A stretch of 64,000 nucleotides of DNA from Hyphomonadaceae bacterium (GTDB lineage Bacteria > Pseudomonadota > Alphaproteobacteria > Caulobacterales > Aquidulcibacteraceae). The stretch spans positions 170,236 through 234,235 of the forward strand of contig JALHQO010000003.1 of the NCBI GenBank assembly GCA_022841905.1, written 5' to 3'. Under the pieces are notes generated by a model. The model worked only from the letters and a program-made list of their open reading frames with translations, did not search any database and was not told where the DNA came from. The position numbers and the translations under genes are program-made. Positions 23,800 through 36,039 of this stretch are shown here, one piece after another. Each line of letters starts with the position of its first letter. The stretch's first letter is position 1.

Positions 23800-25583
23800 C
23801 GGTCGGCTTCCTTCTTGCGCGCGGGCGAGGGCGCGCCGGGTTTAGCTTGCGGCATCTGCACGACGTCAGCGCCCTGCGTTTCCTCAATGGGCGCACGCAC
23901 AGCGCTAATCTCGGCGTCCGGAAAATACTTCAACGCCTCCGCCACAAACGGCTGGCGCTTCAATTCTTCAAGCGCTTTCGCCTCTTCGCGGCGACGGCGT
24001 TCGGTCAAGCTCTCGACGGGCGCGGCCGGCGCATCGGCGGCGCGCACCGTCCATTCGAACGGCGAGCGCTCCTCCAGAAACGCCTTCAAGCGCCGCACCA
24101 AATCGCGCGGCTGGTCCGGCGTCGCGACAAACACGATCTCACCGTTCGGATTGAAGCGCGTGATCTTCAACCTCTCGAGCGTGATTTCCAGATCGACATC
24201 GCGCTCCTCGGCGACCAGGCGAATGACGTCCTCATACGACGCGATGCCAGTGGGCGAGGGCAGCGCTTCTTCTTGGACCGCCGGCGTCTCACTGGCGGTT
24301 TTTGCAACAGGCGCTGCCGGCGCTCCGTTGATCGCGGCTTCTTTGCTTGACGCTTTCGGCGCCGCCGGCGAGACGCCTGCGGTCCAAGACGCCCCATCGC
24401 GCAGCATCCGCGCTGCGTCTTCCGGCGGCGGCATATTCTGCGCCGCGCACAGGCGCACCATCGCCATCTCAACCGCCGCGACCGGGTCGGGCGCCTTGCC
24501 GGCTTCTTCCAACGCCTTCAGCAGCATCTGCCACAGCCGCGACAGTTGCGCTGGCGTCAGCTGCTCCGCGAGCCCGCGCACGCGTCCCACCCAGTCAGCG
24601 CCGCCAATGATCCGCGCGTCGGCGCCGAGCGCTTGCGCGCGCGCGGCTTCGTGGCCGATGTCCAACAGATCGCGCAGGATCAGCGTTGGCTCCGCGCCGC
24701 TATCATACTGGCTGCGCACTTCGGTGATGGCGGTTCTTGCATCGCCTTTGGCGATCGCGTCGAAGAGATCAAGGATGCGGCCGCGATCGGCGAGGCCCAG
24801 CATCTCGCGCACGTCGGCGGCACTCACGCTCGCGCCGGGCTTTTGCACCAAAGCTTGATCCAGCAGCGACAAGCCATCCCGCGCCGACCCTTCCGCCGCG
24901 CGCGCGATCAGCGCCACGCCATCGGGATCAACCTTCACGCCTTCCTTGGCGCAGATATTGGTCAGGTGTTCCGCCAGCCGCTCGCTATCGATGCGCTTCA
25001 AATCGAAGCGTTGGCAGCGCGACAGCACCGTGACCGGCACTTTGCGGATTTCTGTCGTCGCGAAAATGAACTTCACGTGCGGCGGCGGCTCTTCGAGTGT
25101 CTTCAGCAGGCCGTTAAAGGCCTGCGTCGAGAGCATGTGCACTTCGTCGATGATGTAAACTTTGAAGCGCGCCATCACCGGCGCGTAGCGGACGCTGTCC
25201 AGAATTTCGCGGATATCGCCGATGCCGGTGCGCGATGCGGCGTCCATCTCGTGCACGTCTGGGTGGCGGCTCTCCATGATCGCCTGGCAGTGCTCGCCCG
25301 GCGGGTCGAGATCGACGCTCGGCGCATTGATGTCGCCGCGTTGATAATTGAGCGCGCGCGCCAGCAGCCGCGCCGTTGTCGTCTTGCCGACGCCGCGGAC
25401 GCCGGTGAGCATGGTGGCGTGCGGGATGCGCCCGAGTGCGAACGAATTGGCGATGGTGCGCACCATCGCTTCCTGGCCGATCAGGTCCTCGAAGGTCTTC
25501 GGCCGGTACTTCCGCGCCAGCACGACATAGCCGGGGCCGGTCGTATCGTCGCCGAAAAGGCTGGAGTTAGAGGATTCGCTCAC
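23796..25583 (-). CDS. dnaX: DNA polymerase III subunits gamma/tau
   Basis: Clamp-loader ATPase of the replisome, 595 residues. The AAA+ part (residues about 18-260) has Walker A GVRGVGKTTTARLL, Walker B VYIIDEVHML and sensor FIFATTEIRKVPVTVLSRCQ. The segment that normally holds a four-Cys zinc module reads SVDLDPPGEHCQAIMESRHP, with a single Cys. Domain III follows, then a flexible Ala/Pro linker and a tau-type C-terminal domain ending about residue 570. In the linker (about residues 399-440) the peptides SWTAGVSPA and ETPAVQ are encoded by the two arms of an inverted repeat. The 3' end overlaps ybaB. Confidence 0.95.
   Translation of the reverse strand: MSESSNSSLFGDDTTGPGYVVLARKYRPKTFEDLIGQEAMVRTIANSFALGRIPHATMLTGVRGVGKTTTARLLARALNYQRGDINAPSVDLDPPGEHCQAIMESRHPDVHEMDAASRTGIGDIREILDSVRYAPVMARFKVYIIDEVHMLSTQAFNGLLKTLEEPPPHVKFIFATTEIRKVPVTVLSRCQRFDLKRIDSERLAEHLTNICAKEGVKVDPDGVALIARAAEGSARDGLSLLDQALVQKPGASVSAADVREMLGLADRGRILDLFDAIAKGDARTAITEVRSQYDSGAEPTLILRDLLDIGHEAARAQALGADARIIGGADWVGRVRGLAEQLTPAQLSRLWQMLLKALEEAGKAPDPVAAVEMAMVRLCAAQNMPPPEDAARMLRDGASWTAGVSPAAPKASSKEAAINGAPAAPVAKTASETPAVQEEALPSPTGIASYEDVIRLVAEERDVDLEITLERLKITRFNPNGEIVFVATPDQPRDLVRRLKAFLEERSPFEWTVRAADAPAAPVESLTERRRREEAKALEELKRQPFVAEALKYFPDAEISAVRAPIEETQGADVVQMPQAKPGAPSPARKKEADR
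24271..24389. repeat. REPIN-like paired repeat inside dnaX (copy 2)
   Basis: Arms 24271-24290 (TCTTGGACCGCCGGCGTCTC) and 24370-24389 form an inverted repeat with 19 of 20 positions complementary, 79 bases apart. Both arms are read in frame as part of the dnaX linker (peptides WTAGVSP and SETPAVQE). The arm sequence is close to the copy at 35978-36039 (GGACGGCCGGCGTCTCGCC). Confidence 0.75.
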
Positions 25584-35977: not shown

Positions 35978-36039
35978 ATGGACGGCCGGCGTCTCGCCGG
36001 CCAGCACCGGTGCATGCCGGCGAGACGCCGGCCGTCCAT
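35978..36039. repeat. REPIN-like paired palindromic repeat (copy 3)
   Basis: A perfect 24-base inverted repeat (35978-36001 against 36016-36039; arm core GGCCGGCGTCTCGCCGGC) around a 14-base loop. Each arm is itself palindromic (GCCGGCG-TCT-CGCCGGC). It fills the gap between the GIY-YIG gene and the succinate-semialdehyde dehydrogenase gene and touches the former's start codon. Confidence 0.85.

Follow-up and report, generated by a model that had tools for sequence, protein, structure and literature searches.

How two arms of a mobile palindrome come to lie in frame inside dnaX, the gene for the gamma/tau subunit of DNA polymerase III, and whether they matter there, is the question raised by the window analysed here, a stretch of 64,000 nucleotides from a Hyphomonadaceae bacterium.

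A pair of REP units in the dnaX linker

The dnaX product of the window scores 744.5 bits with NCBIfam PRK09111 (cut-off 604), and the gene has one match in the window's genome at E≤1e-80. Both arms are in frame, in the linker that leads from clamp-loader domain III to the C-terminal tau domain. A preliminary description of this DNA had pointed to the outer 20 bases of the pair, 24271-24290 and 24370-24389, which pair at 19 of 20 positions with 79 bases between them. The arms are indeed there, and they can be extended to 28 nt each, complementary at 25/28 positions (89%) and 63 nt apart. The arm copy that it had reported between genes, at 35978-36039, is likewise a real inverted pair of the same family: its arms of 31 nt are 94% complementary, and it constitutes a compact dimer of the dnaX arm unit.

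Table 1. Coordinates in the window of the dnaX gene, its linker borders and the REP units.
Feature	Coordinates	Strand	Basis or remark
dnaX, gamma/tau subunit of DNA polymerase III; undisrupted open frame of 595 aa	23796..25583	minus	Pfam, NCBIfam
DnaX domain III (Pfam DNA_pol3_gamma3, residues 253-394); borders the linker on the upstream side	24402..24827	minus	coordinates converted from residues
First REP unit in the coding sense, type A, 17-nt core with one mismatch, peptide SWTAGVSPA	24362..24389	minus	
Spacer between the dnaX arms with (T/I)N-AP motif, common to relatives missing one or both arms	24299..24361	minus	
Second REP unit in the coding sense, type A, core with two mismatches, peptide ASETPAVQE	24271..24298	minus	
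Tau domain at the DnaX C-terminus (Pfam DUF3646, residues 448-562); borders the linker on the downstream side	23898..24242	minus	coordinates converted from residues
Intergenic REPIN, type A: two exact 17-nt cores, inverted, starts 31 nt apart	35978..36039	.	

The two pairs differ in form. Their cores are separated by 67 nt in dnaX and by 14 nt in the local intergenic pair; the latter has the shape of a REPIN, two inverted REPs with a short spacer; the 63-nt spacer in dnaX contains a motif of an older linker. The type A units of dnaX lie inside an intact coding sequence, and not outside genes as the name REP implies.

For the chance occurrence of such pairs, we searched for 28-nt arms with at least 25 pairs and a span of at most 200 in the window and in six first-order Markov windows of equal length. 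At that threshold the window has only these two pairs, and six of the six Markov windows have none. When the window's own dnaX linker is re-coded synonymously, the observed pairing is reached in 1 of 300 trials, so the linker peptide does not force the palindrome.

The type A unit and its transposase

The core of the type A unit is GCCGGC-GTCTC-GCCGGC and, read from the sequence, all six of its frames are open. A search pattern that takes in type A together with its variants gives 18 exact matches in the window's genome (G000), with none for the reversed control pattern; it is positive in 27 of 30 genomes of the genus, with a maximum of 214 matches in G022. A genome-wide search for the arm and for a RAYT (REP-associated tyrosine transposase), proposed in the preliminary description, thus succeeds in its first half. 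In its second half it fails: G000, which is 99.4% complete, gives no match for a Y1_Tnp gene, and this weakens the case for mobility in that genome.

The cognate transposase is found in the nearest relative, G001, whose DnaX is 97% identical to that of the window's genome. Its RAYT gene (180 aa) has inverted type A units on both sides; the product scores 39.7 bits with Y1_Tnp (cut-off 23) and 79.4 bits with NCBIfam REP_Tyr_transpos, just below the cut-off of 80. Positions 24271-24303 of the window are identical to the upstream REP of this gene at 31 of 33 positions, a T run beyond one core included, and the other dnaX arm, 24362-24389, is identical to the downstream REP at 27 of 28. The dnaX arms are the best match to the G001 RAYT REPs among the G000 sequences compared, and when the G001 locus is set against the whole G000 genome they come first among REP-sized matches (40 of 251 candidates scored). 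The earlier proposal that dnaX contains, without loss of frame, a mobile palindrome of the REP kind is borne out by these near-identical units around a RAYT.

At the site of the G001 RAYT, G000 has no RAYT and about 139 bases instead, with a CGTC-like repeat pair (L368:2019-2159, contig C1) between a gshA-like and an ABC transporter gene. The gene beside this site is taken for gshA from motifs or Pfam domains. The comparison of this site in G000 and G001 indicates that intergenic repeats turn over too. An inspection by eye recognised no unpaired GTAG or CGTC tag, the mark of the REP super-families of those names, at either end of the type A unit.

We examined 15 distinct RAYT loci. Four have a flanking pair of a single core type: GCCCTC in G010 and G001, GTCCTC in G021 and GTCTC in G001. 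Elsewhere there is a mixed unit set in G022 and a single unit at a contig end in G012; most of the 15 loci have no flanking unit of the scanned types, which counts against the explanation that we favour below, and an exact or one-mismatch type A pair occurs at one of the 15 only, in G001. The RAYT genes L051, L052, L361 and L362 each lie between a pair of one core type (GCCCTC, GTCCTC, GCCCTC and GTCTC, respectively). One core type per RAYT suggests matched REP-RAYT pairs. Across 25 genomes of the genus, REP units are more numerous with a RAYT than without (13 against 12 genomes, one-sided p 0.015); three RAYT-bearing genomes have fewer than 10 units.

Linker contents in the genus and its sister genera

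We compared the linkers of all 30 genomes of the genus that were found, assigning the element states by hand. Palindrome family A, B or C is present in 23 of the 30: type A in 14 (some rows with up to 4 core mismatches), type B in 6 and type C in 3, the other 7 having none or an eroded one. Type B is a REP unlike A, with a TTCCAG core whose partner, in some genomes, is an inverse ATCTT core. Type C is a different hairpin, CCCCC...GGGGG, imperfect in G010.

The preliminary description had read the pair as a single recent REPIN insertion in this genome. That reading does not survive the comparison: the unit is genus-wide, and part of the spacer, a TVN/TIN motif, is also present in relatives missing one or both arms (G005, G015, G018 and G023), for which reason the two units probably flank an older linker. 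A recent insertion private to the window's genome is ruled out by the arms that relatives carry; the dnaX insertion is old and not unique.

A DnaX tree of 38 rows, from which the linker was left out and in which 18 of 35 inner branches have good support, requires at least 16 changes for all states together, at least 4 for type B and at least 4 for type C, the last figure including one sister-genus row; the branches of G010 and G043 are weak, and their type C could be one event rather than two. The best local case of mixed linkers is a 100/100 clade of G041, G044, G024, G004, G003 and G007. Here G041 and G044 have a recognisable type A pair and two other members are eroded; G003 combines an inverted B pair with one type A arm and has the outer GGACCGCCGGC in common with type A; in G007 the linker lies on two contigs, with a stop close to one of the contig ends, and type C is found where a contig ends. 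The basal genome, G009, carries type A.

Not every copy is seen in frame. Besides the split linker of G007, the frame is broken within the type A linker of G014, perhaps by sequencing errors. In G014 (L026, contig C1) two net frame changes leave an ORF of gamma length, the C-terminal part being in a frame of its own with an ATG just ahead of the second REP unit, and the mutL frame of the same genome is broken in its REP-bearing linker as well. Long-read indel errors are a likely cause of the dnaX break (the assembly has 8 contigs and is 89% complete). In G008 (L029, contig C26) the dnaX match falls in two frames around query residues 209-218, in the ATPase lid region.

Sister genera have such palindromes too. 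In G057 an inverted B pair lies in frame, its B2 core exact and its B1 core with one mismatch; this genome was added after the tree and is outside the change counts. G056 has type C in its dnaX linker, and G073 has a fourth family, another inverted palindrome with GAGCCTTCAGGCTC. In 17 of 20 added genomes of the family, the dnaX linker holds no scanned unit at ≤2 mismatches. Linkers palindromic beyond re-coding number 2 of 80 named loci (one from this genus, one on a G073 contig), the loci being mostly titled Caulobacter, Hyphomonas, Asticcacaulis and kin, members of this genus included. No clean filled/empty pair of dnaX sites with a target duplication was found among the genomes compared; the states differ by replacement and erosion.

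Codon conservation of the arms

The 3' arm is strongly conserved at the level of codons. Across 12 genomes, 377 of 412 same-residue comparisons have identical codons (92%), G044 (whose start residue differs) and G014 (frame broken) being excluded by the pattern. Over the dnaX gene body, 6601 of 10354 same-residue codons are identical (64%), and 0 of 177 body windows are as high as the 3' arm. The 5' arm is closer to the gene average, with 316 of 441 identical (72%). Because the synonymous sites of the 3' arm are so conserved, neutral decay of one old insertion is insufficient. Re-insertion or conversion from other REPs explains the pattern, with selection as a possible added factor.

A conserved hairpin under selection was considered and is not general: the pairing is matched by at most 2 of 300 re-codings in 10 of 30 linkers and by most re-codings in some others. 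The arm windows of this test were fixed, so that it can miss pairs confined to the first half of the linker, such as those of type B.

REP units in other linkers

Two further proteins of DNA metabolism have REP units in their linkers. Of 30 genomes, 7 have a unit with ≤2 mismatches in the MutL linker and 3 others one with 3 mismatches; type C hairpins are found there in five of six genomes checked, just those whose peptide suggested type C, with no intact hairpin in G016. The mutL frame is kept in G005, G018 and G009 and is not open through the linker in G014 and G043. In G006, mutL has two matches of near-equal score (G006:C30:1269-3125 and G006:C31:4524-6380), perhaps an assembly duplicate or mixed strains. 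The NrdJ linker has units at ≤2 mismatches in 6 of 27 genomes.

Outside dnaX, in-frame REPs of the window's genome lie in a ribonucleotide reductase, in MnmE and in a radical-SAM MtaB-like protein; those of relatives lie in an RsmE-like RNA methyltransferase (G020), MnmA (G007) and an HI0933-like oxidoreductase (G018). The RsmE-like and MtaB-like cases are below the coding threshold on one flank and stand outside the counts given next. The names NrdJ, RsmE and MtaB are our assignments from motifs or Pfam domains, and two REP-bearing ORFs of G022 are presumably IleRS and CarB, to judge from motifs. An insertion that keeps the frame had been called uncommon in the preliminary description; given a unit that is stop-free in six frames and in-frame REPs in several other enzymes, this is not borne out.

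We scored 189 exact sites in seven genomes (G000 18/18, G020 14/14, G009 9/10, G008 2/2, G018 31/31, G007 25/75 and G022 90/214) with a home-made coding score, trained on the window and with a threshold of our choosing; four thresholds were computed. Coding-like sites make up 12 of 41 for type A and 7 of 148 for the other types. Without the three dnaX units the figures are 9/38 and 7/148 (Fisher p 0.001), and at the strictest threshold, dnaX units again excluded, 6/38 and 1/148 (p 0.0003). Of the coding type A units, 10/12 are in the arginine-free frame, which reads WTAGVSPA / AGETPAVQ (7/9 with dnaX excluded, p 0.008). Since none of the six frames has a stop, this bias looks like a peptide filter and not a termination filter. 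For both the phase and the coding enrichment, the sites are few and partly related, and the p values are to be taken as guides.

DnaX processing and alternative explanations

Partial processing of Caulobacter DnaX by ClpXP was reportedly described by Vass and Chien in 2013. Excerpts of PMC5422525, PMC6677533 and PMC7566177 likewise state that Caulobacter DnaX is partially processed by ClpXP. In Caulobacter, which belongs to the same order as this genus, gamma is made by this protease and no frameshift site is used (excerpt of PMC7566177); a glycine-rich tract between domains III and IV hinders ClpXP, and gamma is released (excerpt of PMC6677533). The linker has the same position in both, between domains III and IV, but of the two only that of Caulobacter is glycine-rich: the peak number of Gly in a 15-residue stretch is on average 3.2 for 29 linkers of the genus versus 9.6 for 15 of Caulobacter. 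Hyphomonas linkers also have no glycine tract (3.4 Gly per 15 residues, 8 loci). By analogy with Caulobacter, an effect of the REP-coded linker on tau/gamma processing is possible.

The preliminary description had gone further, with a possible hairpin in the dnaX mRNA at the place where other bacteria make gamma by slippage or frameshifting; on this reading, a hairpin of the arms would drive such an event. The coding strand of the linker does fold strongly, at -82.2 kcal/mol (z -3.27 versus dinucleotide shuffles). Yet a scan with a set of slippery motifs, up to 60 nt from where the linker starts, is negative for 28 of 30 genomes (G008 and G012 have one motif each), the distances to the -1 and +1 stops vary widely between genomes, and in G021, G045, G041 and G008 pairing is no better than in re-coded linkers. 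A conserved programmed site, combining slippery sequence, structure and a near off-frame stop, is thus not what these linkers contain, and Caulobacter makes do with ClpXP; we regard this reading as highly improbable. The chance that the palindrome arose by itself in an Ala/Pro-rich, GC-rich linker is close to nil: the codons for A, G, P and T, being rich in GC, do give some self-complementarity (null mean 9.2), but the random windows, the re-coded linkers and the near identity to RAYT-flanking REPs all speak against it.

Two other readings deserve more weight. A single ancestral insertion, inherited genus-wide, eroded afterwards and never repeated, would account for type A in the basal G009 and in most clades and for the common spacer motif; types B and C, however, differ in their core or in their whole sequence and occur in separate clades and in sister genera, and the synonymous near-identity of the 3' arm is ill-suited to great age without renewal, which makes this history unlikely. 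The palindrome peptides may instead be kept for protein function, the linker setting tau/gamma processing or replisome contacts. Its location is that of the Caulobacter glycine-rich tract (excerpt of PMC6677533), the tract itself is absent, the synonymous sites of the 3' arm are conserved, and REPs are found in the MutL and NrdJ linkers too. But the peptides differ widely between close relatives with A, B or C, 7 of 30 linkers have no recognisable unit, and the glycine tract is absent from Hyphomonas as well, so that REP carriers are not alone in lacking it; on balance we hold a kept function for quite unlikely.

Origin of the arms

Frequent insertion of REPs and their survival in tolerant linkers, the dnaX arms being type A units that a RAYT mobilises, or once mobilised, in this genus, is in our judgement the probable explanation. 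The comparison shows that the arms are nearly identical to REPs beside a RAYT, that the site has been reused and that several linkers are affected. In such a process, REP insertion driven by RAYT would be frequent across the chromosome; copies in folded domains would be lost, and copies in long flexible linkers, such as those of DnaX domains III-IV, MutL and NrdJ, would be kept if their length preserves the frame. With no stop in any frame, the remaining filter would be the peptide, as the arginine-free frame of most coding type A units suggests. A resident REP could then be swapped or refreshed by REP-REP recombination. The product would be a DnaX with a linker derived from a mobile element, probably without a special role.

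A stronger version, in which unrelated palindromes repeatedly rewrite the DnaX, MutL and NrdJ linkers with measurable effects, and mobile repeats are thus a recurring source of linker variation, we consider distinctly unlikely. If it were true, sister species could differ in their tau to gamma ratio through palindrome-rewritten DnaX linkers.

Relation to known systems

In-frame REPs are known, a good number of them from genes for DNA synthesis and repair, and different REPs occur at about one site in Xanthomonas recB (excerpted text of Di Nocera et al. 2013, PMC3733652). As in the excerpted cases of that study, the units described here are short palindromes, often inverted dimers, in replication and repair genes and tRNA enzymes; unlike there, one linker is the site of several unrelated families, both within a genus and in its sister genera, and the dnaX pattern is partly repeated in MutL and NrdJ. 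The main text of that paper does not mention dnaX, tau, polymerase III or clamp, and no published work on REPs in dnaX was found, judged by title. With the REPIN-RAYT system, as excerpted from Bertels and Rainey 2011 (PMC3116915), our case has in common inverted REP pairs and, in a close relative, a RAYT flanked by REP; it differs in a low copy number (18 exact units in G000), in that no RAYT was detected in G000 and in the 67 nt between the dnaX cores.

Palindromes in frame also make one think of Rickettsia, whose palindromic elements were reportedly described by Ogata et al. in 2000 and 2002. They measure ~150 bp and lie in frame in many unrelated genes (cited in the excerpted text of PMC10969869). 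The likeness lies in palindromes in frame inside several unrelated genes; in contrast to the Rickettsia elements of that excerpt, we find single units of ~28 nt, or pairs around an older linker.

The kind of event is therefore already known: single in-frame insertions have precedents. The recurrence of different palindromes at one spot of dnaX is unusual and, as far as we searched the literature, it is new that unrelated palindromes alternate across a whole genus in a single linker of an essential gene. Earlier single in-frame REPs in replication genes were hard to interpret, and this genus offers a natural series of replicates: three or more palindrome families take turns in the linker of an essential gene, and two more linkers of DNA metabolism are affected. 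With such a series one can ask whether REPs prefer these genes or merely survive there, how fast the linker turns over, and whether a REP-coded linker alters clamp-loader processing.

Further REP-bearing reading frames

Among the ORFs L044, L169, L176 and L179, those of G000 and G020 with the motif AWPLAERxEALxRVxNNP or a similar one have REP units of different types immediately ahead of it, and an ORF of G009 that looks related has a unit too; the two tested, L176 and L179, have no Pfam match. In G009 (L178, contig C2), a protein composed of TIR, nSTAND1 and FGE-sulfatase domains, a make-up seen in defence genes, has a REP-like unit in frame.
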